Positions 5,917-29,390 of a stretch of 29,390 nucleotides of DNA are shown here, in pieces. Every line of letters begins with the position of its first letter. The stretch's first letter is position 1. Source of the stretch: a virus. Both the position numbers and the translations under genes were made by a program. The stretch spans positions 1-29,390 of the IMG/VR virus record IMGVR_UViG_3300031999_000151. The stretch is one strand, 5' to 3'. Below the pieces are notes generated by a model. It saw only the letters and a list, made by a program, of their open reading frames with translations, made no database searches and was not told where the DNA came from.

Positions 5917-7992
5917 ATGAATTTAAAGAAAATTTCTTTGACTACATTAATGCCCGAATTCCCCGCTATTTATGAATATAATAATAATATAATAGAAAAT
6001 TATTTAGATGTTATATATAATGAAGAAACGGGTGTAGTTATTGTCCCAGTAAATACCTCAGGGCGAATTAAAGGTGCTACAGGAGAATTTGTTACAACTA
6101 TAACAGATAATCTTATAGTTAAAAGCCAATATACTAATTTATATGATAATATTACTACAGCAGATTATAGTTGGTATACAGCTTACATTGGTGCTGATAC
6201 AGTTTTAAGAGATCCATCAACATGGGAAAATGCATATTTTAAATATATTGATGTTAATAAACCATACTATAAAGTTAATAATAATGATCCTATTTTAAAT
6301 GGAAATATAGCTCTTAAATCAGAAACAGTTTCACAAATAGTAGAACTTATATTTAATGGAACATCTCCAACAAATCCGTTTATTATATTATTAGATCCAA
6401 ATTCTGGACTTACTTATGATATAGCAGCAGTAGATTCATCATATCAATGGTTATCTTTAATATGTATTGGTTATAATGCATCGATAGGTTCAACGTGGAC
6501 TCCTTATCATTATGGAAGAGATTCTAGTGTTTCTGGCGGTGGGGGCGGAGGTGGTTCATATGTTTTACCTATAGCTACTATTTCAACATTAGGAGGAGTA
6601 AGAAGAGGTTCAGATATTTCAATAAATGCATTTGGAACTATAAGTGTTGTACCTAGAACATTTTTACGTGAAGCTAGTATAGGATCTGGTTTTACGTGGG
6701 TTGCAGGAATTATAAATGTTGATACGTATACAACAGATTCTAGTTTAGACACTTTAAGATTAAGACACAATGCGACAGAAGCAAGTTTAGGTTCTTTAAC
6801 AAGAGTTGTGTTCGATGCTTCGCTTGTAACTATAACAACAAGGCTTAACACAACAGATTCAAGTTTAGACACACTAAGATTAAGACACAATGTTACTGAA
6901 GTTAGTTTAGGCTCTTTAACAAGAACTGTGTTTGATGCTTCAATCTCAACTTTAACAACTCGACTCAACACAACAGATTCAAGCTTAAGCTCTTTAACAA
7001 GAGTTATGTTTGATGCTTCAATCTCAATTTTAACAACTCGACTTAACACAACAGATTCAAGTTTAGACACTTTAAGATTAAGACACAATGCGACAGAAGC
7101 TAGTTTAGGTTCTTTAACAAGAGTTGTGTTCGATGCTAGTTTAGTGACTATAACAACAAGGCTTAACACAACAGATTCAAGTTTAGACACACTAAGATTA
7201 AGACACAATGTTACAGAAGTTAGTTTAGGTTCTTTAACAAGGACTGTGTTTGATGCTTCAATCTCAACTTTAACAACTCGACTTAACACAACAGATTCTA
7301 GTTTAAATACTTTAAGATTAAGATACAATGCAACTGAAGCTAGTTTAGGTTCTTTAACAAGAGTTGTGTTCGATGCTTCAACTGTAACAATTTGGAATAA
7401 ATTTGTCAATGTTGATACTTCCTTACTTAATTTAGGAACTAAAAATGCAAATCAAGATACTTCACTAAATTCAATATGGACTAAATTAGATGCTTGTCTT
7501 GGAAGCGGTACAGGAGATGTTACAAAAGCTTATGTAGATGGATCTTTAGCAAGATATGTTAAAAATGCATCAATGGGTACTGATAGTTTTGCCATTATAG
7601 GTGGATATTGGGAAGTTAGTACAGGCATAACGAATAGAATAACAGCTATTGAAGCTTCTTTAAATAATTCTACAACTCTTGCTGCAGCTTTAACTCCTGA
7701 TACTTCAACATCATTACAAATTAGATTTGATAAAATACAAGGTTATGTTTACGGAACAAGATTAGTTCCATTAACTGGAAACTTTACAATGAGTGCTAGT
7801 GATGCTATTGTAGGATGCACAAATCTTATTATAAGCGCATCAACAAATACTGTTACATTTCCTACAACATTTAAGAAAATTGGAGGGACTTATGTTACAA
7901 ATGCGATAACCGCAGATTCAAGTAGAAACTGGATTTATGTCCAATATGTTGATGCAAGTACTCAACTTTATAATATAGCAAAAATAGTATAA
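5917..7992 (+). CDS. Tail fibre protein with 40-residue shaft repeats
   Basis: 691 residues, ATG to TAA, first gene of the rightward block. Residues 1-205 form an N-terminal domain, probably for attachment to the tail. A Gly-rich hinge (seven Gly) then leads into the tail-fibre phrase ATISTLGGVRRG. Residues 272-497 are shaft repeats of the type TTDSSLDTLRLRHNATEASL (five units of 40 residues and one of 26). After the repeats comes VTKAYVDGSLARY, a phrase frequent in phage fibres, and a beta-rich C-terminal knob ending in NWIYVQYVDASTQLYNIAKI. Fibres of this kind are trimeric and bind host receptors (general knowledge; not shown here). No chaperone domain is visible. The stop is 2 bp before the next start, so the genes are probably co-translated. 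Confidence 0.8.
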   Translation: MNLKKISLTTLMPEFPAIYEYNNNIIENYLDVIYNEETGVVIVPVNTSGRIKGATGEFVTTITDNLIVKSQYTNLYDNITTADYSWYTAYIGADTVLRDPSTWENAYFKYIDVNKPYYKVNNNDPILNGNIALKSETVSQIVELIFNGTSPTNPFIILLDPNSGLTYDIAAVDSSYQWLSLICIGYNASIGSTWTPYHYGRDSSVSGGGGGGGSYVLPIATISTLGGVRRGSDISINAFGTISVVPRTFLREASIGSGFTWVAGIINVDTYTTDSSLDTLRLRHNATEASLGSLTRVVFDASLVTITTRLNTTDSSLDTLRLRHNVTEVSLGSLTRTVFDASISTLTTRLNTTDSSLSSLTRVMFDASISILTTRLNTTDSSLDTLRLRHNATEASLGSLTRVVFDASLVTITTRLNTTDSSLDTLRLRHNVTEVSLGSLTRTVFDASISTLTTRLNTTDSSLNTLRLRYNATEASLGSLTRVVFDASTVTIWNKFVNVDTSLLNLGTKNANQDTSLNSIWTKLDACLGSGTGDVTKAYVDGSLARYVKNASMGTDSFAIIGGYWEVSTGITNRITAIEASLNNSTTLAAALTPDTSTSLQIRFDKIQGYVYGTRLVPLTGNFTMSASDAIVGCTNLIISASTNTVTFPTTFKKIGGTYVTNAITADSSRNWIYVQYVDASTQLYNIAKIV
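6730..7407 (+). repeat. Tandem 120-bp coding repeats in fibre shaft
   Basis: Units start at 6730, 6850, 6970 (short, 78 bp), 7048, 7168 and 7288. Units 1-2 and 4-5 encode identical 80-residue blocks, yet differ at synonymous sites (for example Ala-Ser-Leu-Val is written gcttcgcttgta in one and gctagtttagtg in the other). The same unit recurs in the fibre gene at 16075-20193. Confidence 0.9.
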
Positions 7993-7994
7993 TT

Positions 7995-8774
7995 ATGTTA
8001 AACAAAGCAATGTTTTGGAGTTTATCAACTGAAACAACTTCAACTTCAACACCAACTCAATTAGTTAGTTTATCTAATTTAATTTCTTTCTTTAAGATGG
8101 ATGGTTCTTTAGGAAGAGCTCAAGATATATTTGGTGCTCATGATGGATCTTTAGTTGCAGTAGTTCAAAATAGTGCTGGAAAAATAGGTACTTCTTTCTC
8201 ATTTAATGGAACTAGTTCTGGTGTAGATTGTAGTACAAGTGGTGGAGCTTTTGATTTTGGAACATCAACAGACTTTTCTCTTTGTGCTTGGACTAAAACT
8301 ACCGTTGCTGCAGAACAAATGGTTATATCAAAATTTTATACTGGAGTTGTTCCTGCATTTATATTAGAAGTAGAAGGTTCTACTGCATATGCAGTAATAA
8401 GAGATGGTACTGGAAGTGGAACTGCTGAAGCAGTTGTAGTACAATCTCCTCTTACAGGATTTATAAATGTTTGTGATAATAATTGGCATTATTTAGTTGC
8501 TACTTTTGATAGAGATGCTTCTTTAACTTTATACGTAGATGCTAGAAAAGCAGGTGATGCTAGTATATTTGGAGTAACAGGTACTATAAATAATGGTAGA
8601 GCATTAATGATAGGAAGAAGAGATTTTGTTACTACTCCATTTTATTTTAATGGAAATATTGATGAAGTAGCTATTTGGAGTAGAGTATTAACTCAATTAG
8701 ATGTTTCAGCTTTATATAATAATGGTTATGGTTTATCTTATCCATTTACATCTGAAAGTTCTGTAGGCACATAA
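7995..8774 (+). CDS. LamG/concanavalin A-like lectin domain protein (tail adhesin)
   Basis: 259 residues. Residues about 28-250 match a laminin-G type jelly roll: a start with LISFFKMDGSLG, then AGKIGTSFSFNG, FDFGTSTDFSLCAWTK, a central NNWHYLVATFDRD strand followed by LTLYVDARKAG, and an end with FNGNIDEVAIWSRVLTQLDV. These are the usual landmarks of the LamG_3 family, which binds glycans or proteins, often with Ca2+. The first 27 residues are Thr/Ser-rich with no signal peptide. The start is 2 bp after the preceding fibre gene and the stop 19 bp before the giant depolymerase-like gene. It is probably an accessory receptor-binding or tip protein. Fold assignment strong; ligand unknown. Confidence 0.85.
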   Translation: MLNKAMFWSLSTETTSTSTPTQLVSLSNLISFFKMDGSLGRAQDIFGAHDGSLVAVVQNSAGKIGTSFSFNGTSSGVDCSTSGGAFDFGTSTDFSLCAWTKTTVAAEQMVISKFYTGVVPAFILEVEGSTAYAVIRDGTGSGTAEAVVVQSPLTGFINVCDNNWHYLVATFDRDASLTLYVDARKAGDASIFGVTGTINNGRALMIGRRDFVTTPFYFNGNIDEVAIWSRVLTQLDVSALYNNGYGLSYPFTSESSVGT

Positions 8775-8793: not shown

Positions 8794-11700
8794 ATGCATT
8801 ATTTAACATTCAATGGAAAGTATATAATTTTAAACGGTGGTTTTTTAAATGATGGTGCAATTACTACAGTAACACCAATACCACCAATACCTCCGACAGC
8901 GACTACATTTCCTTTAACTTTAAGTGGAAATCATTTAGTTGATGCCTCCGGAACTCCTTTCTTAATAATTGGAGATTCTCCTTGGTCACTTATTGTTGGT
9001 CCTAAAGAATCAAGTATTGCATTTTATATAGATAATAGAGCTGCTAAAGGTATTAATGCATTTATATTAAATGCTATAGAATCGTATTATAATGGCCCTG
9101 CAGATGCATCGGGTTATTTACCATTTCAAAATATGACAACACCTTTTATTAATCCTTCAGAAAATTATTGGAGAAATGTTGATTTTACTATAAATTATTG
9201 TGCATCTAAAGGTATTGCTGCATTTTTAAATCCTGCATATTTAGGATATGATGATGGAGGAAATAGACCCGAAGGATGGTGGTCAGATGTGAGTAATGCA
9301 TCTTTGACCACAATGTCTGATTATGGAAAATTCTTAGGAAACAGATATAAAAATACAAATAATATAATATGGGTTATTGGTGGTGATAGTTCTGCTGGAA
9401 AAACACAAGCTAAAATAAATGCAATGGTTGCAAGTATTGAAGCATCATCAGGAAAAGCTGAATTATTTACAGCACACGATGCTAGATATGTCTCGTCTTA
9501 TACTAATTATGATGAATCTTGGCTTGATTTTCAAACAGCTTATTCAGGCAATAGGTATACAGCAAGAGATTGTTCTTATAATATGAGAAGAGGAGAGCCT
9601 TATGTTTATTATGAAGGTCATTATGAAGGATATGATGTAGGAACGGTACCGATGATGTTAAGATGGCAAATGTATACTCCTATACTTATGGGGGCAATGG
9701 GAACTTTTTATGGAGATTCATCAATATTTGCCTTTGAATCTCCTTATGGAGGATCGTGGACAACTGCTTTAGAACATCAAGGAGCATTAGATTTAGAAAG
9801 ATATGGAAAATTATTTAATTCTAGACCGTGGTATAATTTAGTGCCCGATATAAGTAATTTAGTTTTAACTAAAGGTGTAGGATCACCTGATACTTCAGCA
9901 TATGCATCGTGTGCTATAACAACTGATGGAGGTTGTGCTATAGCTTATACACCATTTAAAAAGGATTTAAGCATAAATATGTCAAAAATAATTGGTACTG
10001 GAGTTCACGTTTGGTGGTATAATCCAGCAACAGGAAATTCATCTGATTATGGAACATATGCAAATGCAACAACTATTAATTTAAGTCCTCCTTCATTAGG
10101 AGACTGGGTTTTAGTTTTAGATAATAGTGCTCTTAATTTAAGCGCACCGGGTATACCTTATGTTCCACCTGTTCCAGAGCCATCAACTTATAGTTATTCT
10201 TCACAACCTATACTAAGTCACGATCAGTATTATGTTACTTATGATGGTGCTTTAGATAATGATTTAGTAGGAACTTGGAATCCTTGGTTTCCTACTCAAG
10301 ATACTTGTACGGGAACATTTTCTTATGATATTATAAATAATGTAAATAACATATATTCAATAAATAATACATCAGGATTATTAAGTATAGGTTCAAGTAC
10401 TAATTTAACTACTGGAACTGATCAAGTAACTATTAGAACTACATTAGGTTCAATAACTCAAGATTGTTCAGCTTTTATTAAAGTTATGCCTATAGGTAAT
10501 TGTTACTTTATTGATCCAAGTGTTGGTTCTTCGGGAACTGGAACAAGAATAAGTCCTTATAAAGCTTGGAGTGATTCATATACACATGCAGTAGGTAAAG
10601 CATATTTCTTAAAAAGAGGTAGTATTACTACAACAAAGTTAGAAGCATCTACTAATGGAACTTTAGGAAACGAAGTTATTTATGGTTCTTATGGTCCTGA
10701 AAACGGTGGAACTAAAGCTTTTATTCAAAGACCTGGTTTAGTTGGTATATATTTATATGGCAATTATAATCAATTTTATGATTTATATTTTAATAAATGT
10801 GGTTGGGCTATAATACAAGAATATACTTCGGCAGGTTATAAAAGAACTAATAATTTATTTAGTCATTTATATGCTTATCAAACTGGATTAATAAATGGTG
10901 CAATATTTTTTCAGCAACAAATGCCAGGTCTTCAACAATCTATAGATTTTCAAGCACATCATAAAGTTTATGATTATCAAGTTACCGAAGCAAGTGGTTA
11001 TGGTATGAAAATTGAAATGGGTGATATTGGAATAGAAAATATGAGAACTTGGAAAAATGGATGTCCTACAAACGAGGGACATGGGATCTCATTAGCAACA
11101 CTTGCAAATCACGTAGTCATAAAAGGTCTTTCTTCATATGCAAATACTTATCTAGGTATGGAAATGTCTGGTTCATATCACGATTTATCTTATTCATATA
11201 TTGATGGTTCTGGAGTAGGTGCAGTTAGTGCTATTAATTTAGATGATCCTACAACTCATGATTGTTCAATAAGACATTGTGTAATTAAAGGAACTAATTT
11301 ACTTGGTTCACAAAAATATGCAGCAATAAGATTTAGAACCGGCGCTCAAGATACATCTACTGGAGAACTTTTAACTCCAATAGATTCAAGAAAGAAATAT
11401 ACTATTGAAAATTGTAATATTTCTTATGCTCCTGGTAATAAAGGTACAGCTATAGGTATTTATAATTATACACAACAAGTTTTATTAAGAAATAATATAA
11501 TACACGATTGTTCATATGGTATTTATATGTTAAGTTGGGAAAGTGGAATAAAAGATGTGTCTATCTATAATAATATATTTCATAGTAATAATTCAGATAT
11601 TTATACACTTTATGGTTCATCTAATCTTAATGTATATAACAATACAGCAACTAGTGTATTTGACTTCACAGATTCAGCAACTGAAACTGTTAAAAATAAT

Positions 11701-14700
11701 GTTTATGGTTCTTGGGTTGGTGCTGTTAGTTCTTCATCTAATAATTTAGATATCGATACAATAAATCAAACAGATTATTTTGTAGATCCTACAAATCATA
11801 ATTATCATTTAAAAAGTAGTGCAACAAATCTTATAGGAATGGGTATTAATGTTGGAATTTTAACTGATCATGATGGTAGCACATACACAAATCCTCCATC
11901 TATTGGAGCTTATGAATATTTTTTAGAACCCTCAACTTATAGTTATTCTTCACTCATGTCAGTATTAAGTGTAGATTTAAAATATTGCATTCCTGAAAAT
12001 GTAAGTACTGGTGATTATGTTGGATATTGGAAAAATAGCAGAAGTTGGGTAGCAGAAGGAAGCATCAGATATGCTATAGAAACTGATCCACTTAGCGCAC
12101 TTGCTATTGACACATCATCTGGATTAATGACAATATCTGATTATACTAAAATTCAAGGACAAATAGCTACACAAGATTATCTTTGGGATGTCAGTATAAG
12201 AACAACAGATTATGGATTCAACCCACCTTATTACACAATAAGTAAAGCTGAAATAAGAATAAAAGAAAATTCATATTGCAAATTCTATGATCCATCTTTT
12301 GGTGGAACATCTTTAGGTACTAAAGTTGCTCCTTATAAAACAATGAATGCTGTAGCATATGAAGCAGGATATGGATATTTTGTTAAAAGAGATAGACAAT
12401 TTACAGATATAAATACTGTAGCAATAGGTGGACTACATGCAAGTGAAACAAATCCTACAGTATTTAGTGCTTATGGTTCGGGTTATAGACCTATATTCTG
12501 TGGACCTGGTGGTGGAGTTGGTTTTTATCTTGGAACAGGAGAAACTTCTGAACCTGAAGAATATGTTTATCTTTATGAATATGAGATAAAAAGCTATGAA
12601 AATATGGCAATTAAATCTTTTATGTATACTACACATATAGGTATGTATAACCTTTATATTCATAGGAATAATTTAGGTGATATTGAAAGTCAATGTTCAA
12701 TGAGCACACAATCATATGAAGATTTATCATATCATGCACCTCTTGAAGTTTTAAACTGTGATTTTTCTGAGGCACAAATAGGTACTATTCTTACTCATAG
12801 TCATATGAAAATAGGAATGAATCCAATTACTATAAAAAGCTGTAGTTTTTATGATAATACTCCTATTTCACAAGTAAGATTAGCTGATGGTTCTCTTGGT
12901 GGTGTAGTTGAAGATTGCCTCTTTATTATGGATGCCTCTGAATATGATAATAATTCATGTACACATATTCAATTAAGAATGAACAATGTTGTAATTGAAA
13001 GAAATAGATTTTCTGGTTCTACAACTGCAATATTTGTAACTTGTCCGGGCTGGGTAATAGGTGAAGATTGGATTTATCTAATGCAACCTTGTGATTTTAC
13101 AATTAAAAATAATTATTTTGATCAAGCTAGAGAATACGCAATTAATATTGCGACTAATGGTGCATTATTTAGAACATCTAAGAATGTATTAATTGAAAAT
13201 AATATTATAACAAATTGTAATAATTATGGTATTAAAGCTTCTAAAGCTAATAATGTTATTATAAGATATAATAATATAAGTGGATTTCCTGTTGCTTCAG
13301 TAGCAGGTTATAGTAGTACTGGAATATTAGAACCAGCTGTTTATGGTTTAAATGATGCAAGTATTTATTATAATGTTATTTATGGATTTAAAAATGGTAT
13401 TGATGTAGCTGTATCTTCTGGTATAGGAATTTATAATAATACAGTTGATGGTTCTATAATTTTAACTGGAGCAACTAATGCAGTTGCAAGGAATAACTTC
13501 TTTCTTAGAAAACTTACAAATGCAGATACATCTTCAAATAATATTAATATTGCCGATATTACAGTGGCTGATTATTTTACTGATTATGCAAATCATGATT
13601 ATCATTTAAAAAGTACAGCAACAAATGCTTTAGATGCAGGATACGATATGGGATATATTAGAGATTTAGATGATGTTTCTGTTAATAATCCTCCAGATAT
13701 CGGAGCTTATGAATATTTTTTTTTGAATGATTTAAATATATTATTTGCGGATGATCTTAGTACTTGGATAGTTGGTGAACCATCTATAGGAGGGGTATTT
13801 GAAAGATGGCCTCTAACCAGACAAAATTGGAATTCTGGAAGTATAGCAAATAGTATAGTTCAAGTTAATGAAAGTAATGTTGGAAAAGCATTTGAATCTA
13901 CTGTTGCAACAGGAGAATGTACAGGATTAGGTAATAATTGTTATCAAATGCAAATATGTTTAGGGCAACGTTATCCAGAAGTTTGGGTAGATTGGAGTAT
14001 GTGGGCAGATCCTGGTTATGATGGAGATGGTGCAACAGCGGGTGGTGCTGGTGCAGGAAAAATGCCGGCAGGGTTTATGGGTGGATTAGATCATTTATTT
14101 GGCGGCGGAGATCCTTGTACTAGATCTGGTGAAGCTGCAACTGGATGGCATACTCATCCAGTTTGGGGAAGTACTAATAATCTTATGTCTTATACTTATG
14201 ATTTGCAATCAGCTGCTAGAACAGGGGCTTATATTAATAATATACCAATAGGAGGATGGGAACGTTGGACAGCAAGATGTAAAGTAAATACTCCTGGAGT
14301 TTCAAATGGTTTTATAGAATATTTTGTTAATAGTTTATATAAGTGTGGACAATATGATATTATGATGCGTTCTACAGAACAATATAATGCAGATCCATCT
14401 TATGGATATATTGAAGCAGTTTGGTTAAGTAATTTCTTTGGAGGAGGAGGTTCAACATTTGCTAGTAAAAGAAATAATACTATGAGATTTTCTAATATAG
14501 TTATTTCAGAAGTTGGAGCTCAAAATGAAAGATATAAAGATAGTTCTTCTCACACAGGAGATACTATACCATCTTTATATTATTCAGGATTTAAAAATGA
14601 TATAAGTATTTTATTCAATGAAACATTTACAGCTGAATCAGGAGTAATTCAATCGCATTACAATGTAGATACTCCTCCAATGAGTTATAGAACATATACA

Positions 14701-14955
14701 AAAACTATAATAAGTTCAACTGCAACCATTAATTTAATATGGGACTATTATAGATATGATTTTGATTATGGAGCTAATAATAGTTGGTGCAAAGTATATA
14801 AAGGAGTAGAAAAAACTTTAGTAGCAACATATGATAGAACTAATTTAGCTAGTGGTACTGATGCTATAGATTCAAGCGTATGTATTATAGATTATTTTAT
14901 AGGGAATAATGTCGGAGACTCAAAGGGATGGAAACTACATTATACTACCTTTTGA
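8794..14955 (+). CDS. Giant tail spike/depolymerase: DUF4038-GH140-like, two beta-helix modules, PL14-like lyase
   Basis: 2053 residues. Order of domains: a short N-terminal beta segment; a DUF4038/apiosidase-like TIM barrel with its C-terminal beta domain (about 40-445), including LVDASGTPFLIIGDSPWSL, NIIWVIGGDSS with Asp198 and YVYYEGHYEG with Glu274/Glu278 as candidate catalytic acids, and the HVWWYNPATG...DWVLVLDN ending; module A (462-1044) and module B (1045-1643), each starting PSTYSYSS, with a cadherin-like domain, a parallel beta-helix and a NHDYHLKS...PPDIGAYEY-type closing segment; a polysaccharide lyase 14-like jelly roll (about 1650-1905) with GKMPAGFMGG at 1755-1764 and GGWERW at 1820-1825; and a C-terminal CUB-like domain ending GWKLHYTTF. 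No signal peptide. It probably cleaves capsule or exopolysaccharide from the virion; the substrates are unknown. It ends in TGA, unlike the intact neighbours (TAA), and overlaps the next frame by 47 bp. Confidence 0.85.
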   Translation: MHYLTFNGKYIILNGGFLNDGAITTVTPIPPIPPTATTFPLTLSGNHLVDASGTPFLIIGDSPWSLIVGPKESSIAFYIDNRAAKGINAFILNAIESYYNGPADASGYLPFQNMTTPFINPSENYWRNVDFTINYCASKGIAAFLNPAYLGYDDGGNRPEGWWSDVSNASLTTMSDYGKFLGNRYKNTNNIIWVIGGDSSAGKTQAKINAMVASIEASSGKAELFTAHDARYVSSYTNYDESWLDFQTAYSGNRYTARDCSYNMRRGEPYVYYEGHYEGYDVGTVPMMLRWQMYTPILMGAMGTFYGDSSIFAFESPYGGSWTTALEHQGALDLERYGKLFNSRPWYNLVPDISNLVLTKGVGSPDTSAYASCAITTDGGCAIAYTPFKKDLSINMSKIIGTGVHVWWYNPATGNSSDYGTYANATTINLSPPSLGDWVLVLDNSALNLSAPGIPYVPPVPEPSTYSYSSQPILSHDQYYVTYDGALDNDLVGTWNPWFPTQDTCTGTFSYDIINNVNNIYSINNTSGLLSIGSSTNLTTGTDQVTIRTTLGSITQDCSAFIKVMPIGNCYFIDPSVGSSGTGTRISPYKAWSDSYTHAVGKAYFLKRGSITTTKLEASTNGTLGNEVIYGSYGPENGGTKAFIQRPGLVGIYLYGNYNQFYDLYFNKCGWAIIQEYTSAGYKRTNNLFSHLYAYQTGLINGAIFFQQQMPGLQQSIDFQAHHKVYDYQVTEASGYGMKIEMGDIGIENMRTWKNGCPTNEGHGISLATLANHVVIKGLSSYANTYLGMEMSGSYHDLSYSYIDGSGVGAVSAINLDDPTTHDCSIRHCVIKGTNLLGSQKYAAIRFRTGAQDTSTGELLTPIDSRKKYTIENCNISYAPGNKGTAIGIYNYTQQVLLRNNIIHDCSYGIYMLSWESGIKDVSIYNNIFHSNNSDIYTLYGSSNLNVYNNTATSVFDFTDSATETVKNNVYGSWVGAVSSSSNNLDIDTINQTDYFVDPTNHNYHLKSSATNLIGMGINVGILTDHDGSTYTNPPSIGAYEYFLEPSTYSYSSLMSVLSVDLKYCIPENVSTGDYVGYWKNSRSWVAEGSIRYAIETDPLSALAIDTSSGLMTISDYTKIQGQIATQDYLWDVSIRTTDYGFNPPYYTISKAEIRIKENSYCKFYDPSFGGTSLGTKVAPYKTMNAVAYEAGYGYFVKRDRQFTDINTVAIGGLHASETNPTVFSAYGSGYRPIFCGPGGGVGFYLGTGETSEPEEYVYLYEYEIKSYENMAIKSFMYTTHIGMYNLYIHRNNLGDIESQCSMSTQSYEDLSYHAPLEVLNCDFSEAQIGTILTHSHMKIGMNPITIKSCSFYDNTPISQVRLADGSLGGVVEDCLFIMDASEYDNNSCTHIQLRMNNVVIERNRFSGSTTAIFVTCPGWVIGEDWIYLMQPCDFTIKNNYFDQAREYAINIATNGALFRTSKNVLIENNIITNCNNYGIKASKANNVIIRYNNISGFPVASVAGYSSTGILEPAVYGLNDASIYYNVIYGFKNGIDVAVSSGIGIYNNTVDGSIILTGATNAVARNNFFLRKLTNADTSSNNINIADITVADYFTDYANHDYHLKSTATNALDAGYDMGYIRDLDDVSVNNPPDIGAYEYFFLNDLNILFADDLSTWIVGEPSIGGVFERWPLTRQNWNSGSIANSIVQVNESNVGKAFESTVATGECTGLGNNCYQMQICLGQRYPEVWVDWSMWADPGYDGDGATAGGAGAGKMPAGFMGGLDHLFGGGDPCTRSGEAATGWHTHPVWGSTNNLMSYTYDLQSAARTGAYINNIPIGGWERWTARCKVNTPGVSNGFIEYFVNSLYKCGQYDIMMRSTEQYNADPSYGYIEAVWLSNFFGGGGSTFASKRNNTMRFSNIVISEVGAQNERYKDSSSHTGDTIPSLYYSGFKNDISILFNETFTAESGVIQSHYNVDTPPMSYRTYTKTIISSTATINLIWDYYRYDFDYGANNSWCKVYKGVEKTLVATYDRTNLASGTDAIDSSVCIIDYFIGNNVGDSKGWKLHYTTF
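10177..13722 (+). repeat. Tandem duplication of a cadherin-like plus beta-helix module
   Basis: Two diverged copies of about 590 residues inside the giant gene: 10177-11925 and 11926-13722. Both start with (E)PSTYSYSS, encoded by nearly the same bases, both have a CYF/CKF-Asp-Pro-Ser phrase opening the beta-helix, and both end with a DY/NYHLKS...IGAYEYF closing segment. Confidence 0.8.
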
Positions 14956-15142
14956 ATCTAATTTTGAAGATGCTACTATATCAACAGATGAAAGTGGAGT
15001 TTCAACAATTTTAGGCCCCACATGGACTGCTTTCGAAGCAAGACCCGAAATTGGTAGTTATAATATAGTTACTGAGGCATATGATACATCTGCCGCTTAT
15101 CCCGAGATAGTAACCTTTGATGGTAGCATTTCATATAATTAG
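14909..15142 (+). CDS. N-terminal part of a jelly-roll lyase-like protein, frameshifted
   Basis: 77 codons ending in TAG. After a short start (MSETQRDGN) the sequence YIILPFESNFEDATIS looks like the first strands of a jelly-roll domain, which then continues without a gap in the +1 frame of the ORF at 15117-15722 (joined as SISY | ISPVGAKA). Together they would make one protein of about 270 residues, a normal length for a single-domain polysaccharide lyase-like jelly roll. The start lies inside the end of the giant gene (47-bp overlap). No other in-frame ATG exists, because a TAG stands three codons upstream. It could be a mutated gene, a sequence error, or a +1 programmed shift at AAT TAG C. 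Confidence 0.55.
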   Translation: MSETQRDGNYIILPFESNFEDATISTDESGVSTILGPTWTAFEARPEIGSYNIVTEAYDTSAAYPEIVTFDGSISYN

Positions 15143-20195: not shown

Positions 20196-21068
20196 ATGGC
20201 TGTAACAATAACAAAACCAATTTCTTGTGTATCAATGGGGTGTATAATATGGAACGCTGAACATTCAATTGACAATCCTTTTGGAACTGGCCAAAATATT
20301 TCATTAAGAGATTTGGGTTTAACTATTAATAGAACAACTCCATTTAAGTTTTCATATTTTAATGATGTTTCACTTTATGATCCTTTTCATAGTAATTATA
20401 CTGATCACGATATAATGTTATGGGATCCTATTGATTATAGAGAACAATTTATTACTATAGATTCTTGCACATTGTGGAGCTGTAAATTTACTACCGATTT
20501 TTACACAGAAGAAGATTTTTATTTCAATTCATCAATAGGAAATTATACAGTGCCCGGTTTACCTGATCATGGATGGGGTATAGAAAAAATGAAAGGTGGT
20601 AATGGATCTTATGGAATAAAAAAATACAATAATATTGTTTTACATGATAGTAGTATATATTTACATTATGCATTTAAATGGGGTGTTGGTGATGAGGAAA
20701 TTCAGTATCATGCTCAATATATTATTTCATTAAATTATAATGATGCTTCATTAAGTGTAATTCCGTCAACTCAAGCTTGGACAGCAGCGGGTGAAAAAAA
20801 TTATGATGTAAGTACAAACACAGTTTGGTATTATAAAAGTCGTAATAATAATAATTTTTACTGTTCTGCAATAACAGCAACTGTATGGCAAGAACTTGGT
20901 GACCATTTACAAGATAAATATGGTGGACCGGGTACTATTACTATATCAAATGATGGTGCGCCTGGAACGTATAGTACTACATTTACTTTCGGTTATTTAA
21001 TTAAAAGTTCCTATAATATATTAGATGTAGAAAATACAAGAACTTTTACTGCTAATATGACATCTTAA
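20196..21068 (+). CDS. Hypothetical structural protein
   Basis: 290 residues, starting 2 bp after the S74 fibre and ending 18 bp before the next gene, so it is translated from the same message. The sequence is beta-rich and aromatic-rich (many Trp, Tyr, Phe), with no signal peptide, membrane helix or coiled coil. It carries the Asp-x-Ser signature of its neighbours (NDVSLYD, HDSSIYL, NDASLSV, YDVSTNT). I do not recognise a family. The position directly behind a fibre suggests an accessory fibre, adaptor or tip protein, but nothing in the sequence proves this. Confidence 0.8.
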   Translation: MAVTITKPISCVSMGCIIWNAEHSIDNPFGTGQNISLRDLGLTINRTTPFKFSYFNDVSLYDPFHSNYTDHDIMLWDPIDYREQFITIDSCTLWSCKFTTDFYTEEDFYFNSSIGNYTVPGLPDHGWGIEKMKGGNGSYGIKKYNNIVLHDSSIYLHYAFKWGVGDEEIQYHAQYIISLNYNDASLSVIPSTQAWTAAGEKNYDVSTNTVWYYKSRNNNNFYCSAITATVWQELGDHLQDKYGGPGTITISNDGAPGTYSTTFTFGYLIKSSYNILDVENTRTFTANMTS

Positions 21069-21086: not shown

Positions 21087-23387
21087 ATGGCAAACGTAAA
21101 CTCATTCACAGAAACAGTTGATCTATTAGTATCACAAGTAAATATTGCTTTAGAAAATGTTGTTGCATTAAACGAAAGTTTAACAACACAAGAGGATACT
21201 GTAACGTTATCAGTAGAACAAATGAATTCTATTACAGGAGATGTTTCAACTGTAACTTATTCATTACCTTCATATAATAATGTGATCAATAAAGTTAACG
21301 CAGCATCACAAACGGTAGATACTTTTATAAGAGGTGAAGGCGTTGTTTTATTGAATGATGGAACTTATCGCAAAATAACAACAATTCCTGTAGCAATATC
21401 TCCGGCGCAAATAACCAATGTATCAGCACCCACAAAATTTTTAACAAGAACTAATTGGTTTTTTGAATCAATGATGCATCCTCAACTTATAGTATCATTT
21501 GATCTTAAAAACAAAATAGATGATCGTTCAGATAGAGTTACAGTTAAAAGAGTGATTTTTGATAACTTTAATGATGAAGAAACACAATGGTTTTTAGATA
21601 ATATTATAGGTGTTAATAGAACTTATTACGAAACAGTTACATATTTTAATGCTCAAGGGAAAAAATATTGGGAAGATGAAGAAATTCAAGATCTTCCTCT
21701 TTCAACTGAACCCTACACAGGGTATTTTGTAATTACTGACAAAAGAACTATAAGTACTAAAGAATGGTATTATCTTGATACTATGAATTATGGAGTAACA
21801 TCTGATGAACCTATTGTCAAAAATCATCAATTATCAATAGGAGATCAATTTCGTTACGGGAATTCAATTTGGAAAATTGATGATATTCAAATTAATGAAA
21901 AAAGAGTTCATGTTATTCCTATAGTAGGTATGGATCATCCAACAATTAATAATAATTTTGAAATTTATAATACGCCCTTTTCAACTAAAATATTAAATAT
22001 ACCAATTGGATATGATGAATGTAATATTATATTTCTAAAGGGTATTAATGATGATTTTAATATCATAGCAGATGATTGGAGTTTTGGAATAACATTTTAC
22101 ACAAATAATTTAGTAATAAGTGGAGGTTCAACAACACTTGAAAATTATTATAATACGTATGTAGCTGATTTTGGAAAACAGCTAGAAGGACAAACAAAAG
22201 AAAAATTTATTCCGGCATATTATGGATTAATTCCGGATCCTCCTGTATTTTCAGCTACTGATTTTGCGGTTAAACAAATTAACACACAAATGAATGCTGC
22301 TTTAGATACAGAAACTATTAAAAATACACAAACTCAAATTGAATCAACAAAAACACTTGTAAATTCTCTTAAAAGTACTATTTCTCAACAAAAGGCACAA
22401 TTAGTTGAATTAACAGATGCGGGAGAAAGAGCAAACTTAAACTCAAAAATTACATCAAATGTTAATAGTTTGTCAAATAAAACAATAGAATATCAATCTT
22501 TAGTCAGATCACTTGCTACAATAGCATATGAAAACTCAGCTGTTACAGTTGACGCAAAATATAGAGTAAGAGGATTCTTTGCAATCCCAACACCAAAAGG
22601 AAACCCACCACAGCAAATTATTCAATTTGAATATGCATATCGTTATTTAAAACTTGATAACACTGGTATATCTCTTAATACGTATGAACATCCGGATCCT
22701 AGCACAGGACAAATTGCACGTGGAGTTTTTACAGATTGGACAACAGTTCCTTCGATAATAAAAACAAAAGTTTATGATGTATCATCTGCAACTTATTCTT
22801 GGGTTACTGAGAATATCGCAGATGGTGAAGTAACTAATATAAATCAAATTGATATTCCTATCACAAAGGGTGAAAAGGTTGAATTAAAGATTAGATCAAT
22901 ATCTGAAGCTGGTTGGCCATTAAATCCTTTAAAATCTGCGTGGTCAGATACAGTTATTATTGAATTTCCTTCAAATTTACAAGGTTCGAATCAGATAGTA
23001 AATATTTTAAGTGATGCTGCAGTTGAAGAAACAACAATTAAACTTGATGAAACATTATCTGCAGCTGGGATTCCTACTCACCTCGTAGATTCTGTTCCAA
23101 ATCCAAATTCCGGAACAGGAACATATTTTAAACATCAATCAATTAATCTTGCATTTGATTTAAAAACAAAAGATACTGCTGGAATAATTAATACGGTTAA
23201 TACTGTAGATTTACAAACACAAATAGAAAATTTATCACCTTATACTTATGTTACTATAATTGCAAATCCAAACTCAACACAAAAAACATCTTATCCACAA
23301 ATAACAGGAACACTTCAACAATTTTTACAAGCAGTAGTTGATTCATCTGCAGCAATTTATGATAAATTTGTAACAAATATAATTTAA
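21087..23387 (+). CDS. Virion structural protein with coiled coil and fibronectin III-like region
   Basis: 766 residues, ATG to TAA. The N-terminal part (1-390) is mixed alpha/beta. A long coiled coil follows at about 391-475 (TQTQIESTKTLVNSLKSTIS, QQKAQLVELTD). A fibronectin III-like domain at about 487-630 has VRGFFAIPTP, then EYAYRYLKLD, then KVELKIRSISEAGWPLNPLKSAWSD-like strands with the usual Trp. The last 130 residues are helical and beta. Coiled coil plus FN3 is common in baseplate and tail-tip proteins of large myophages. The family is not recognised precisely. The leader is A/T only and the next gene starts 13 bp after the stop. Confidence 0.75.
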   Translation: MANVNSFTETVDLLVSQVNIALENVVALNESLTTQEDTVTLSVEQMNSITGDVSTVTYSLPSYNNVINKVNAASQTVDTFIRGEGVVLLNDGTYRKITTIPVAISPAQITNVSAPTKFLTRTNWFFESMMHPQLIVSFDLKNKIDDRSDRVTVKRVIFDNFNDEETQWFLDNIIGVNRTYYETVTYFNAQGKKYWEDEEIQDLPLSTEPYTGYFVITDKRTISTKEWYYLDTMNYGVTSDEPIVKNHQLSIGDQFRYGNSIWKIDDIQINEKRVHVIPIVGMDHPTINNNFEIYNTPFSTKILNIPIGYDECNIIFLKGINDDFNIIADDWSFGITFYTNNLVISGGSTTLENYYNTYVADFGKQLEGQTKEKFIPAYYGLIPDPPVFSATDFAVKQINTQMNAALDTETIKNTQTQIESTKTLVNSLKSTISQQKAQLVELTDAGERANLNSKITSNVNSLSNKTIEYQSLVRSLATIAYENSAVTVDAKYRVRGFFAIPTPKGNPPQQIIQFEYAYRYLKLDNTGISLNTYEHPDPSTGQIARGVFTDWTTVPSIIKTKVYDVSSATYSWVTENIADGEVTNINQIDIPITKGEKVELKIRSISEAGWPLNPLKSAWSDTVIIEFPSNLQGSNQIVNILSDAAVEETTIKLDETLSAAGIPTHLVDSVPNPNSGTGTYFKHQSINLAFDLKTKDTAGIINTVNTVDLQTQIENLSPYTYVTIIANPNSTQKTSYPQITGTLQQFLQAVVDSSAAIYDKFVTNII

Positions 23388-23400
23388 TTAATAGAACAAA

Positions 23401-26400
23401 ATGAGTTATTCAAAATTATTTAATAATACAGCTGTTTTAACATCTAAAAATCCTGAGGTATTTTTAACTTTAACGTGGAATACTTCGGGGCAATATTGGA
23501 TAATTCCTGATATATCTACAGTAATTGATAGAAAAGTATTATATATAAATGGATTAGATGCAAATGATTATACTGGCACACCTTCATTAGGATATGCGTT
23601 AGAATTAAATTCAAGTAATAATGTTGCATCATTTCATATTTATACTCCAGTTAATTATAATTTTACAGAAAGATTATATTTTAAAATATATAATTCTGAT
23701 ACTTTATCTACTATAATTAATTATGAATTAATTAATATTAAAAATAGACCTTATATAGTTGAAAATAATATTATTAATACATTCACAAATGATAATATAC
23801 TTATTGATGACGAAGCATCATATATGATATTAAGAACTAACCCTAAATATACAGGAAATATAGTTCTTTATGTAGATAGTAGTGAAAATATGTATCTAGA
23901 TACATTTAAAATATCTGATGTTTTATCTAATAAAAAATATCGTAAACAACAAATTTCTGGAAATAGTGTTCTATCAAGTGATATTCGAAATACATTTTCA
24001 TCTTTACCATTAGGAGAATTGTATCGTGTTGATAGTGATAATACTCTTTTAATTGATATCCCAAAAACATCAATAGAAGATCAATATATTACTACATATA
24101 ACTATGGCGCAAAATTATTAAAAGATGAATTATATGCAGAAGATAATGGCATACTAGCTCCACTTTGGATTAATTCAAAATTACCTGATTATTTTGCAGC
24201 ATTTAGATTATCAGGTGTTTATAATACAGAAACCTATGATGGTTCTAATCTTGATAATTTAGCATTTAAATATTTAGAGGAAAGTGATTTAATAAAAACC
24301 TGGAGTTTAAAGCCAGAAGCTCCTCTTGGTCAATATTTAGAAACACATACAGCAGATATTGTTAAAATTAAGTCTCCTTTATTTTTATCATTAACTGATC
24401 CAAGCGCAAATGAATCAGATCCAAATACATGGTATGGCATAGCAGTTGATAAAGGTGTTGTTACAGGAAGATCTGAAACTACACATTTCTTTAATCAAAA
24501 GGCGCAAAATTATACAGATCTTAATGCCTTTGTATCACAAGGATTTGAAAGAAATACATTATTAATTCCTAATTTAATAAATTTAGAATATATTTTTACT
24601 GATGAAGATGTAAGTCTTTATTCAATGAATCGTTATTTTGGACTTTATTTAACAGAAAATGTATTATATAAAATAGGTTATTATTTAAATTCTTCTTCTG
24701 GAACAATAGAAATAATTTCATTAGATGGTACAGATAGTAGTGTTTTTATGCATTCATTAATTTTTAATGCAAGCACAGGAAATGTTGCATCAGATTATAT
24801 GAATAGAATATTTGTTTTGAATGATAATATTCAACTTCAAAGAATTACAAATGTTAATCAGATAAATGAAGCATCAATTAATGATTATGTAAATAAACCA
24901 TATCAAAATATTTTTATTACAGAAGCTGAACAAATTAGTTATAATCCTTTTATGATTTTAACACTTAATAATACACTTGAACAAGGAGAACATTTAAGAA
25001 TAATTAACAAAACTCAAAATAAAATTTGGGAAGTTTATAGCGTTGACGCTAGTAATTTTAATTGTAATAGATATTGTTCTATTTCTGAAGATCCTAGCGG
25101 ATTATATCCTATAGTATATAGAACATATTTTGATATCACCGGAGATATTTCTTATCAAATACAAGAAATTGAGGCAGCATTTGATTTATTTAGTGATTTT
25201 GAAGGCACTCAGTTTAGAGCAGGCATACACGGAGATAATTGGGTATCATTGATTCTTAATGATGATGCATCTACTAATGAAGAATGGTTGTTTCAAAGAA
25301 TTACTTCTTCTACACTATCTGATCCCAATGATTCTTCATCAGCATTTAATTCTATAGAAACTGCAGGATATATATCATTTTTTGGAAGATTTACACCAAA
25401 TTCAAGTGACTTTGAAACTATTACATATGATTCATCTTATGGTCCAATTGATTTTGAATTATTCGGTGATCGCAATAGTATAATGATTAATTTTATTAAT
25501 AATGAAACTAATTATTTATACACTATGGATTCATCAGATAATATAATTGATAAATTTGAAGACCCAACACTTTATCAAGGAAATAGTGGCTGGTATAAAA
25601 AAATTCTTGAGTTTGAAGTTTCTACAAATTTATATCAATACATAAAAGATCCTTTAAGTATTAAAGATAAAATTTTAATAATGACATCTGAAGAAATTCA
25701 ATTAATTGAAAATCAGTTTAATGCATATAATCTTTATCCTATTAATATATCTTTAATGGGAATTAATTCTGTAAAAGATATTGATTATACAGTTTATGAT
25801 ATTTCATTAGGAGTTAAAAATAAATACAAATATAATAGAGAAGATGATGTTAGTTCATATAATATATTTATTGAGCATGATGCTTCATATTCTCTTAGTA
25901 TAAAAGGATCGTATATAATTCAGTCAGGCACAGGAAATAAAATTCAATATGGTATTACATCATCATATACAACCAATTCATTAATAAATACATTTGATTC
26001 TAGTATTAAATTTTTAGCTGACACAGATACTATTGTTACTTATGCTGTATTAGATGGTTCTTATAATTATCAAGGATATAAAGATGGATCTGCTGGTAAT
26101 GAAGAAAATATATGTGATTATTATGATTCAAGTGTATTATTAAAATATGGTTTAACCACTCCTCTTATTTCAAAATGGGTAGGTTTAGGTAATGATTGCA
26201 GAAATAATCCTATAAGATTAATTTTAGATAGTTCTATTTTAAATGTAAATACAAACTTTATACCAGATGATAATAATTTTACTCAAGAATTAACATACCC
26301 CTCATTTAAGTATTTAACTCCAGGAAATAGAGCTTGGGAAGATTATGTTTTTTATGATATAAATGATGTTATTTATGATGCTGACGCATCATTATATTTA

Positions 26401-28101
26401 ACATTTAAAGAATCAATGTTCAGATATCCTTATGTTGATTATTTTTCAAAATTAGTATATTCTAATTATAATGTTGATGCGACTAAATCTCGATCATCAA
26501 TAGTATATTATAATCAATATAAAGATACTATTGATGTAATTTTTATGGGATTAAATCTTTCTATAAAAGTAGAAAATCTTGCAAAAAATGTTTTGGATAT
26601 TAAAAATTATGATAGATATAAATTCTCGTTTATTTCTACAACACAACGAAATAAAGATTCAAATCGTCCTATTGAATTTATTATTAATGAAAATATAAAA
26701 ACCATATTAATGATATGGTATCAAGGAAATGATGAACTTAATTATAATGCAAGATATTCTACATTTTTACCCGGAAAAAGTTTAATGAATTACACAGGTG
26801 AAGGTTTTGTATCAACTTCTAATTCTTCTGATCATTATAGTTTTGTTAAAACACCATATTTTGTAAACAATTCTACAATTCAAAAAACTATTGAAAATTT
26901 TTACGGTACAGCTACTACATATAATAGTGCTACAGCAAATCCGTATGCGCAATTTAATAAAAATTTAGGTGAATTTAGTTCAACTTGGAATGCATTTAAT
27001 ACTAGTACTAATATAATAGCTACAAATATATTTTATATTCCTTCGGATGAAAATTATCAAACATTTTCACAATATATTGATTATATATATGCACGAAATG
27101 CTACTACTTATGGAGATTATGTATTAAATTATGGTTATAGATATCGTAGCAAAGTAAATTATTATGATAATAATACTACTAATTTAGCAACATTAAAATA
27201 TTATCTTGCAACAGCTCATACATATATTATGTATTACATTATTAGAGAAAATGAAATTATTAATAGTTTAGATTTTGGAAGTGTTGTTAATCCAATGTCA
27301 ATAACCATTAACGCTCCAAGAATATATGGTAGTATAAGTACATATAATGGATGGTTCAAACCTGATTTTAATAACATATTAGAATTTAAAACAAACGAAG
27401 AAAGTGATTTAATATCTATAGTCAATAAAGATTTTACACTTAGTAATACAAATTTAAGAACATATAACAATATTCCTCAGTTATGGTATAATAATGTCGT
27501 TTCAACTGTTTCTGCAGCAGATATTGCAGCAGGAAATGCAATTTCATATATTTCTAATTTTAATGTATTTAAAGCATTATGGGATGCAGATTATTATATA
27601 AAAGATAATGCATATGTAAATGGTTATTTATCTTCGCAAGAATTATCTTCATTTTTTGGTTCTAAATTACCTAAACTTTCTAATGAAATAACATTAGAAA
27701 AATGGGATTCTACTATGGTATCTTCACTTCAAGAGACGACTACTATAACATTATCATTTAATATAACTCGAGCTATATTATCATTATTTAAAACAAATTC
27801 AACATTTTTATCTAATTGGGCTAATTTTGGTGATTCAGATTCTACTATAGATGCTTATGTAAAAAATACTATTTTAACATATTACAATATTAGCCAACCA
27901 AAAATAAAAGTTAATTTTTATTATAAATCTCGTGATACATTATTATTACACTATACTAATGATGGAGGTTTTAAAAATGATGGTAAACAAAATTTTAATG
28001 GGCAATTAATATATCAGAATGATGAATACATATATAAAATAATAGTTTCAAAGGCTGGAAACTTCTCATACTTTATTTCATTTACATTAACAGAAAAATA
28101 A
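23401..28101 (+). CDS. Very large virion structural protein, unknown family
   Basis: 1566 residues, ATG to TAA. The protein is rich in Asn, Tyr, Ser, Ile and Asp, with no signal peptide or transmembrane segment. It reads as a chain of beta-rich domains. A recognisable early stretch is LAPLWINSKLPDYFAAFRLS (about residues 250-275), the kind of phrase I associate with uncharacterised structural proteins of environmental phages. About two dozen Asp-x-Ser motifs are spread evenly over the whole length. The position after fibre and FN3-type genes, and the length, fit a baseplate, tail-tip or long fibre component. There is no enzymatic motif. Confidence 0.75.
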   Translation: MSYSKLFNNTAVLTSKNPEVFLTLTWNTSGQYWIIPDISTVIDRKVLYINGLDANDYTGTPSLGYALELNSSNNVASFHIYTPVNYNFTERLYFKIYNSDTLSTIINYELINIKNRPYIVENNIINTFTNDNILIDDEASYMILRTNPKYTGNIVLYVDSSENMYLDTFKISDVLSNKKYRKQQISGNSVLSSDIRNTFSSLPLGELYRVDSDNTLLIDIPKTSIEDQYITTYNYGAKLLKDELYAEDNGILAPLWINSKLPDYFAAFRLSGVYNTETYDGSNLDNLAFKYLEESDLIKTWSLKPEAPLGQYLETHTADIVKIKSPLFLSLTDPSANESDPNTWYGIAVDKGVVTGRSETTHFFNQKAQNYTDLNAFVSQGFERNTLLIPNLINLEYIFTDEDVSLYSMNRYFGLYLTENVLYKIGYYLNSSSGTIEIISLDGTDSSVFMHSLIFNASTGNVASDYMNRIFVLNDNIQLQRITNVNQINEASINDYVNKPYQNIFITEAEQISYNPFMILTLNNTLEQGEHLRIINKTQNKIWEVYSVDASNFNCNRYCSISEDPSGLYPIVYRTYFDITGDISYQIQEIEAAFDLFSDFEGTQFRAGIHGDNWVSLILNDDASTNEEWLFQRITSSTLSDPNDSSSAFNSIETAGYISFFGRFTPNSSDFETITYDSSYGPIDFELFGDRNSIMINFINNETNYLYTMDSSDNIIDKFEDPTLYQGNSGWYKKILEFEVSTNLYQYIKDPLSIKDKILIMTSEEIQLIENQFNAYNLYPINISLMGINSVKDIDYTVYDISLGVKNKYKYNREDDVSSYNIFIEHDASYSLSIKGSYIIQSGTGNKIQYGITSSYTTNSLINTFDSSIKFLADTDTIVTYAVLDGSYNYQGYKDGSAGNEENICDYYDSSVLLKYGLTTPLISKWVGLGNDCRNNPIRLILDSSILNVNTNFIPDDNNFTQELTYPSFKYLTPGNRAWEDYVFYDINDVIYDADASLYLTFKESMFRYPYVDYFSKLVYSNYNVDATKSRSSIVYYNQYKDTIDVIFMGLNLSIKVENLAKNVLDIKNYDRYKFSFISTTQRNKDSNRPIEFIINENIKTILMIWYQGNDELNYNARYSTFLPGKSLMNYTGEGFVSTSNSSDHYSFVKTPYFVNNSTIQKTIENFYGTATTYNSATANPYAQFNKNLGEFSSTWNAFNTSTNIIATNIFYIPSDENYQTFSQYIDYIYARNATTYGDYVLNYGYRYRSKVNYYDNNTTNLATLKYYLATAHTYIMYYIIRENEIINSLDFGSVVNPMSITINAPRIYGSISTYNGWFKPDFNNILEFKTNEESDLISIVNKDFTLSNTNLRTYNNIPQLWYNNVVSTVSAADIAAGNAISYISNFNVFKALWDADYYIKDNAYVNGYLSSQELSSFFGSKLPKLSNEITLEKWDSTMVSSLQETTTITLSFNITRAILSLFKTNSTFLSNWANFGDSDSTIDAYVKNTILTYYNISQPKIKVNFYYKSRDTLLLHYTNDGGFKNDGKQNFNGQLIYQNDEYIYKIIVSKAGNFSYFISFTLTEK

Positions 28102-28107
28102 TAATAT

Positions 28108-29390
28108 ATGAAATTTCAATATTCACCGGGTTTATTAGGTTATGGTCCTACAGGTTCAAATGGAACTGATGGGTTTCAGGGTATGTCATTATATTTTACG
28201 GATTATGATACAATTTTTAATAAAAGTACTATAGAAACGGCTATTGAAAATAATTATACTCTTTGGTCAAATGCATTGCCCAATACAACTTTACCGGCTG
28301 ATAGAGTTTATATTACAGGAGATTTGTTTGTTAATTCAAGGGGTATAGTATATGAAATTGATGCATCAGCTAATACATTTAGTGAAACAGATGGTCAATT
28401 ATCTAAATCTGATTATTTTACTACTAATTTAATAAGAACAGATGATGGAGTTGAACGTTGGTTTAATCTAGCTGATTTAAATCAAGTCGATGGATCAATT
28501 TATACTGCTATAGCTTTAACAAATGTAGATTTAGATACTTGGACAGATAATTCACCTGCTCCTCATTATTCAGCTGGTGCAACTGTTGCAAATCAATACG
28601 CTGAGTCTGCAAGTATACTTGCGCAAGCAGGAATTTTAGAAATTAGTTGTCAATTTTTAAAAAACTTTGGAAATAATGTTACTATAGCATTATATGATAA
28701 TAGTGATGTATTATATCAAACTTTATGGACTATAAGCGCATCAGGAACATATACTACTAGTATTACAATTCCTATCGAAATAAATTTAAAGATTAAATAT
28801 ACATTTAATATTAATACTTATTATCAAATATATCGTCCTACTTTAATATCTTACGGAAGTTCTTTAATTGAAAATTATTATTTAATCGATAACACACAAT
28901 TATCCTCAACATTTAATTATGCTAACATATCAATTTATGGTATAAATTTAAACAATTTTACAAGAATTGAATGTACAGATATAATTGATGGATCATTTAA
29001 CGCGTTTACATTATATTCAACTGGAGAAAATTTAGATGTTGATGATCATCGTGCGCTAGCACTTGTTTATGAAAATAATTTAAATGTTTTTAAAATCGGT
29101 AACATTGATACAACAAATAATGTGCGAAACACATCATTAACATTTGATGTTTCTTTATTAAAACATAATAGACCATTTAGATTTAATAAAAATACCTCTT
29201 CTGATTCTGTTTTAACAAATTTAGAAAAAAATCCTGTATTATTATTTGATCCTAATTTTAATTCAGCACCAATTTCTTTTCAAAATTATGTAGCATCAGC
29301 AAATGACATTACAATAAATTGGAAATTATCAGATTTTTCTAATGATACATCTGTCATAGGAGATTTATATTTTTACAAAGAACCTTCTTT
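28108..29390 (+). CDS. Structural protein with short collagen-like N-terminus (partial)
   Basis: The ATG at 28108 lies 6 bp after the preceding stop, and the frame stays open for 427 codons to the right edge. The product starts MKFQYSPGLLGYGPTGSNGT, with a short Gly-x-y stretch (GPTGSNGTDGFQG) like a collagen-type fibre start, and continues with Ser/Thr/Asn-rich beta sequence. Asp-x-Ser motifs occur again (IDASANTF, VDGSIYT, IDGSFNAF, FDVSLLK). The family is not recognised. It probably belongs to the same tail or baseplate assembly; the C-terminus lies outside the window. Confidence 0.8.
   Translation, partial: MKFQYSPGLLGYGPTGSNGTDGFQGMSLYFTDYDTIFNKSTIETAIENNYTLWSNALPNTTLPADRVYITGDLFVNSRGIVYEIDASANTFSETDGQLSKSDYFTTNLIRTDDGVERWFNLADLNQVDGSIYTAIALTNVDLDTWTDNSPAPHYSAGATVANQYAESASILAQAGILEISCQFLKNFGNNVTIALYDNSDVLYQTLWTISASGTYTTSITIPIEINLKIKYTFNINTYYQIYRPTLISYGSSLIENYYLIDNTQLSSTFNYANISIYGINLNNFTRIECTDIIDGSFNAFTLYSTGENLDVDDHRALALVYENNLNVFKIGNIDTTNNVRNTSLTFDVSLLKHNRPFRFNKNTSSDSVLTNLEKNPVLLFDPNFNSAPISFQNYVASANDITINWKLSDFSNDTSVIGDLYFYKEPS

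Follow-up and report, generated by a model that had tools for sequence, protein, structure and literature searches.

The window analyzed here, the whole 29,390-base stretch of the IMG/VR virus record IMGVR_UViG_3300031999_000151, carries 5 leftward and 10 rightward genes. The rightward proteins are rich in a three-residue signature, Asp and Ser separated by a single residue (D-x-S), which in its narrower form with a small middle residue (D-[small]-S) appears to be a modification sequon. The rightward genes, all on the plus strand, encode a 691-amino acid (aa) fiber-like protein with coiled-coil-like repeats (5917..7992; 22 D-[small]-S sequons vs 3.7 expected), a 259-aa LamG/ConA-like lectin protein (7995..8774; 6 vs 0.9), a 2053-aa fiber/depolymerase (8794..14955; 29 vs 5.1), a 77-aa open reading frame (ORF) that overlaps the 3' end of the 2053-aa gene (14909..15142; 2 vs 0.4), a 201-aa protein (15117..15722; 1 vs 0.3), a 1372-aa tail fiber with a C-terminal Peptidase_S74 intramolecular chaperone (16075..20193; 35 vs 5.1), a 290-aa protein (20196..21068; 4 vs 0.9), a 766-aa conserved structural protein (phrog_29329; 21087..23387; 4 vs 1.0), a 1566-aa conserved protein (23401..28101; 22 vs 5.5) and a 427-aa fiber-like protein cut by the window end (28108..29388; 5 vs 1.6). 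Altogether, 130 sequons are found in the window vs 24 expected. The five leftward genes (1..5828, minus strand; head-tail adaptor-like, S1-like and others), which served as the negative control for sequon counts, contain 2 in 1886 aa, with about 3.1 expected. The 2053-aa protein combines an Apiosidase (PF13204) domain, that is, an apiosidase-like glycoside hydrolase, with right-handed beta-helices and a PL14-like domain in one chain and thus has the makeup of a multi-domain depolymerase fiber.

Comparison of the D-x-S count of each protein with residue-shuffled controls revealed the strongest excess in the 1372-aa protein (40 vs 8.5 expected, z 12.3), followed by the 691-aa (23 vs 4.6, z 9.3), 2053-aa (37 vs 10.9, z 8.1), 259-aa (7 vs 1.7, z 4.3), 1566-aa (22 vs 10.8, z 3.7) and 427-aa (8 vs 2.9, z 3.1) proteins, with little raw excess in the 766-aa (6 vs 3.6) and 290-aa (4 vs 1.8) proteins. 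An earlier reading of the DNA (the sequence-only reading) had counted by eye about 35 such sites in the 2053-aa protein and about two dozen in the 1566-aa protein; these counts and the accompanying expectations were accurate, and the excess it claimed across the rightward proteins is stronger than stated. When the full 20x20 set of residue pairs in the rightward proteins was ranked at spacings of 1 to 5, D-x-S came out on top (151 vs 45.5 expected, z 15.6), the runner-up being S-L (z 6.4), which overlaps the motif. The excess is specific to position +2 from Asp: there is no general excess of Ser at +1 or +3, the exception being the 691-aa protein at +1 (10 vs 4.5), and neither D-x-T (37 vs 46.6) nor N-x-S (54 vs 62.3) is overrepresented in the rightward proteins. 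Masking of exact 6-mer repeats left D-x-S at the top of this ranking (124 vs 41.4, z 12.9; runner-up 4.1), and the leftward genes show no excess, either in total (10 sites) or in any protein of appreciable size. The signal thus survives on both points that the sequence-only reading had named as capable of overturning it, namely, removal of repeats and comparison with the leftward genes. Its remark that the S1-like protein nearly lacks the motif is correct (0 after 28 Asp), but with only 1.5 expected it carries little weight by itself. The sites draw evenly on the two Ser codon families (18.0% of TCN and 17.6% of AGY codons fall in the sequon), and therefore selection acts at the protein level, not on DNA. 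No comparable excess appears in the other two forward frames; a partial signal in one reverse frame (45 vs 22.6) is expected, since the pattern GA..TC is identical on both strands.

The specificity of the motif was derived from a pool of the window and its close relatives (1174 raw sites, 451 non-redundant). When the middle residue is Ala, Val, Ser, Cys, Thr, Pro, Gly or Ile, the frequency of Ser in the third position after Asp is 2.7-5.3 times that after non-Asp; the probability of Ser at +2 is 0.53 after D-V, 0.47 after D-A, 0.45 after D-S, 0.41 after D-C and 0.36 after D-P, compared to about 0.08 after non-Asp. No notable Ser excess is seen with Asp, Glu, Lys, Gln, Tyr, Met, Phe, Asn, Leu or His in the middle (0.5-1.4). 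A scan of all 20 residues in the third position detected enrichment of only Ser (555 vs 175, 3.2x, z 28.7) and Cys (38 vs 11, 3.4x, z 8.1), with Thr not enriched (0.90x for D-[small]-T), and in the first position, Asp is enriched 3.2x and Glu weakly. The possibility that Cys is merely a mutational neighbor of Ser was rejected given that Thr, Ala, Asn, Gly and Tyr are also one codon step away and are not enriched. At +3, once redundancy is removed, Ile alone is significantly enriched (2.0x), so that of the hydrophobic residue which the sequence-only reading placed after Ser only this weak component holds. The motif is therefore D-[A,C,G,P,S,T,V,I]-[S or C], with Thr excluded, which is narrower than the Asp-x-Ser(-hydrophobic) signature originally described.

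The search for relatives, with the 766-aa protein as the query, retrieved records of up to 405 kb; the named relatives are jumbo or huge phages of Bacteroidota, namely Lak phages (Prevotella; 39% identity), PAU, Tenacibaculum PTm1 and pT24, Chryseobacterium MA9V and Flavobacterium MaF61. All 11 loci at ≥61% identity, among which L119 and L120 come from the same phage, show D-x-S excess (1.57-2.86x), and loci at 26-34% identity are mostly close to 1, with marginal exceptions, the clearest being L137 (1.56x, z 2.7). The D-[small]-S class reaches 5.4x in the window, 4.1x in the fibers of the 405-kb genome G001 and 4.7x in those of the 260-kb genome G002, figures that are partly circular with respect to the middle residue because that class was defined on the pool to which all three belong; the non-fiber genes of the two genomes show no excess (0.92x and 1.01x, respectively). 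Lak-A1, the Lak-like loci L123 and L124, and the more distant phages lie outside the pool and so provide independent tests of this class. In the long ORFs of Lak-A1, the small-middle class is enriched 1.79x (z 8.4) and the large-middle class 1.06x; in L123 and L124, the respective values are 2.2-2.4x and about 1.0x. Along G001, D-x-S amounts to 2.1-3.1x in the fiber-bearing 20-kb bins at 0, 180, 220 and 380 kb and to 0.74-1.54x elsewhere; in G002, the excess likewise falls in fiber-bearing stretches, and the most sequon-rich ORFs of G001, G002 and G003 are fiber or baseplate-like. The Lak-A1 sequons are concentrated in a few long ORFs; one Lak ORF (265783-269595; 12 sequons vs 2.3) is an apparent counterpart of the 427-aa protein of the window, with a similar N-terminus. 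Thus, the sequon is restricted to fiber and baseplate genes and has a clade boundary, being weaker in Lak and absent from most distant relatives.

Individual sites turn over between homologues. Of the 62 D-x-S columns in an alignment of seven 1566-aa protein homologues, 36 are present in one homologue only, and the middle residue is free to vary. In this protein, Ser is kept in 74% of the comparisons when Asp is kept and in 30% when Asp is lost; for the fiber N-terminus, the corresponding values are 85% and 29%, and the coupled loss of Asp and Ser ranks second among 494 pair types. Sequons also avoid each other: 2 pairs fewer than 8 residues apart were seen in four proteins, with about 11.5 expected. 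When the unmatched sites were analyzed for register shifts, they clustered only weakly (1.1-1.3x), and this result was not used as evidence. When the apiosidase domain was aligned by eye with solved apiosidases, 1 of its 11 D-x-S sites was clearly shared, which suggests that most of these sites are specific to the phage; a genome scan found no bacterial homologue of this domain. An AlphaFold model of the domain built without homologues had a predicted local distance difference test score (pLDDT) of 36, whereas for a segment of the 1566-aa protein, about 110 residues were predicted reliably, with all four D-x-S sites of this stretch in loops or at their edges.

Taken together, specificity at three positions, coupled turnover and avoidance of close spacing fit the recognition sequon of an enzyme and argue against a beta-turn code. 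Three features expected of such a sequon, namely positional specificity beyond composition, selection at the protein level, and turnover in which motif density is maintained and the motif residues are lost together, are observed here, and phage-encoded glycosyltransferases are present in the relatives G001, G002, G003 and G010. The sequon and its distribution are demonstrated directly; from the chemistry-like specificity, turnover and spacing, we infer that the sequon marks a covalent modification, and the glycan gene cluster of the relatives suggests that the attached group is a glycan. The explanation that we favor, and consider reasonably probable, is phage-directed glycosylation of Ser and Cys in tail fibers at D-[small]-[S/C]. 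A phage-encoded enzyme inside the host cell would recognize phage proteins by a small residue at -1 that is preceded by Asp at -2, and would attach a group, most likely a sugar, to the side chain of Ser (a primary -CH2-OH) or Cys (-CH2-SH), with Thr not used; glycosyltransferases of the conserved cluster (GT25, a GT10 fucosyltransferase and others) would then extend the sugar into a glycan coating the fiber. Such a glycan would likely make the long fibers more stable or protease-resistant, shield them, or help them adhere to mucus or host polysaccharide.

The cluster in question occupies positions 276-304 kb of G001 and comprises three GT25 genes, a GT10 fucosyltransferase, a GDP-mannose dehydratase, a DegT aminotransferase, and AGT-like and further glycosyltransferase-like genes; counterparts were found in G002 (3-29 kb), G003 (40-51 kb) and G010 (180-207 kb). 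One of the GT25 genes, GT25-A (G001 280299-281015; PF01755 above the cut-off), and the fucosyltransferase are common to all four large clade genomes examined, and the dehydratase was seen in three of the four (G001, G002 and G010). GT25-A contains the invariant acidic motif (FEDD/EDD) and matches protein glycosyltransferases of the GT25 family, namely procollagen galactosyltransferase 1 and, weakly (E 0.011), mimivirus R655; its nearest relative of solved structure is a protein glycosyltransferase. The family is mixed and includes lipopolysaccharide enzymes, so a protein acceptor for GT25-A is a prediction from sequence similarity; procollagen galactosyltransferase acts on hydroxylysine, unlike the proposed Ser/Cys acceptor. 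The orthologues of GT25-A form a sharply bounded group (≥41% identity, followed by a drop to 35%). Such an orthologue is present in 12 of the 14 metagenomes with a sequon-positive fiber locus (28635, 37468, 31521, 29983, 5573, 32053, 50014, 50015, 35698, 9860, 44580, 9503, 27899 and 3860) and in 0 of the 14 with 26-34% relatives (Fisher p 6e-6; the Lak-like L123 and L124 were left out, and some metagenomes contain the same phage). We hypothesize that GT25-A is the candidate for the first transfer. Lak encodes one GT25 of the same family. No GT1/GT4 (PF00534) match was detected in the clade records, and the two GT2 genes near a G001 fiber cluster (379876-381437) were discarded as general candidates given that they were not found in the other clade records. 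Two conserved genes come after the cluster in G001, G003 and G010 and are labeled capsid-like and prohead-protease-like from their sequence appearance and similarity to Lak proteins, not from a family match.

Several observations weigh against fiber glycosylation by this cluster. The 29-kb window itself contains no glycosyltransferase; the association between GT25-A and the sequon lies within a single clade and is not independent evolutionary evidence; GT25 genes occur without the sequon in other huge phages (LR756501, LR756504, G016 and G017); and the search used detected no fucosyltransferase in Lak. The capsid-like protein adjoining the cluster shows no sequon excess (D-x-S 1 vs 1.2), and the 1.45x excess of E-[small]-S blurs the first position. 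Furthermore, one gene of the cluster matches the DNA alpha-glucosyltransferase (AGT) family, and phage glycosyltransferases may target DNA or host surfaces instead.

Among the alternatives, the one that survives best, albeit as an unlikely explanation, is another covalent modification of the same Ser/Cys residues, be it acylation, attachment of a group through a phosphodiester or phosphorylation by a kinase that escaped recognition, which every piece of the sequon evidence fits equally well. The acid at -2 and the Ser preference resemble an acidophilic kinase consensus, and Polo-like kinases prefer [D/E/N]-x-[S/T]-hydrophobic; however, no Pkinase-family (PF00069) match was found in any of seven records of the clade, one of which is 405 kb long, acceptance of Cys combined with a bar on Glu, Lys, Gln and Asn in the middle is unusual for kinases, and the presence of the glycan cluster argues against any of the other modifications. 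A structural code, with D-x-S as an Asx-turn or capping motif favored in beta-rich trimeric fibers without any enzyme, appears slightly less plausible again: it accounts for the excess in fiber proteins and would suit the predicted loop positions of the four sites in the sole confidently modeled stretch, but not for the enrichment of Cys and not Thr, the middle-position excess of Val, Ala and Ile with none for the turn-common Asn, Asp, Lys and Glu, the homologous fiber loci of more distant phages that do without the sequon, or the turnover between close homologues. Hence, of the two possibilities raised by the sequence-only reading, the selected beta-turn code is disfavored; in the other, a modification or processing site, modification is supported by the three-position specificity, coupled turnover and glycan cluster, whereas processing is unlikely at 20-40 sites per protein. 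It is improbable that the sequon docks a host or phage protein such as a chaperone, an adhesin or a host surface lectin: short linear motifs, turnover and restriction to fibers would be compatible with binding, but selectivity for Ser and Cys over Thr suggests nucleophile chemistry, and tens of spaced sites per protein suggest that bulk is placed on each. An artifact is hardly credible: internal repeats with DASL, DSSL or DVSGL units do occur in some fiber proteins, but repeats and module shuffling are ruled out by the first rank retained after masking and the excess kept in the 451 non-redundant contexts, a DNA or codon motif is ruled out by the equal use of Ser codon families and the silent forward frames, and the non-fiber genes of the same genomes lack the excess.

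Bacterial O-glycosylation proceeds without a sequence motif, with the Bacteroidota motif being the sole known exception (PMC12871550); this general O-glycosylation sequon is D-S/T-[L,I,V,T,A,S,M] (PMC12871550, PMC8698959). The proposed phage glycosylation resembles the Bacteroidota system in the Asp-directed, Ser-preferring three-residue sequon, the involvement of fucose-related genes, and the phylum, which is the host phylum of the named phage relatives (PMC12871550, PMC8698959). In the bacterial system, the modified residue comes right after Asp, Thr is accepted, a hydrophobic residue is next and the enzyme acts outside the cytoplasm, whereas in the phage sequon, Ser or Cys lies two residues after Asp, Thr is unenriched, and the targets are phage fiber proteins. 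The motif D[ST][AILVMT] is not enriched in these proteins (0.71-0.87x), so the sequence-only reading was right to describe the signature as related to, but distinct from, the bacterial one. Synthesis of phage fibers is expected to take place in the cytoplasm, and the Bacteroidota system acts on non-cytoplasmic proteins. The virion glycosylation of mycobacteriophages (Freeman et al. 2023, as cited in PMC12619734) is similar in that glycans are placed on phage structural proteins, reportedly at the C-termini of capsid and tail-tube subunits; the passages available describe no dense three-residue sequon in tail fibers. Moraphages encode several core glycosyltransferase families (PMC12619734), and the literature found reports no such sequon for Lak phages or moraphages. 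Lak megaphages share the sequon at lower density. A functional analogue of the proposed system is the glycosylation of giant-virus fibrils by virus-encoded enzymes.

The broader proposition, to which we assign about even chances, is that Lak-related megaphages encode their own sequon-directed protein glycosylation, which acts at D-[small]-S/C on Ser and Cys while sparing Thr, places tens of phage-made glycans on each fiber chain, forms a bacterial-virus counterpart of eukaryotic and giant-virus glycoprotein coats, and uses a sequon unlike any described. The literature searched, with most subscription journals outside its scope, contains no such sequon in phages. If this is correct, widespread megaphages, the gut Lak phages among them, carry a second sequon of different build that can be read from the sequence by itself; it would pinpoint the residues for mass spectrometry, supply engineering with a new enzyme that modifies Ser/Cys in a sequence-directed manner, and change models of fiber-host and phage-mucus interaction in such phages.

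Several features of the clade were noted in passing. A 5523-aa ORF of G001 (10592-27160) has a hydrophobic N-terminus and beta-helix-like repeats, with 39 sequons vs 16.6, and two other G001 stretches (386690-390574 and 3-1931) contain collagen-like G-T-Q/G-I-Q repeats, the former with an S74 chaperone. In G001 (L018-L037), 38 of the 377 ORFs start with a shared leader resembling MKxVREHINEKFxEESDPIxDMGIG (e.g., 29775-30170, 60995-61396, 78165-78659 and 94158-94565), which the same pattern search did not find in G002, G003 or Lak-A1; it is possibly a targeting or cleavage leader peculiar to this phage. GIY-YIG-like and HNH-like endonuclease genes are, by eye, abundant in the clade (window 2832-3074, minus strand, and many G001 ORFs). 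The protein encoded at window positions 1-2010 (minus strand) contains three internal repeats that end in LYPKLFESPD/LFENP, which comes after a conserved EVPxGYGSKNPxYQxKRQWQMA stretch. Finally, the non-coding gap at 15723-16074 of the window includes the hairpin-like stretch CCCACGCCAAAGACGATGGG, which resembles the end of an IS605/TnpB element.

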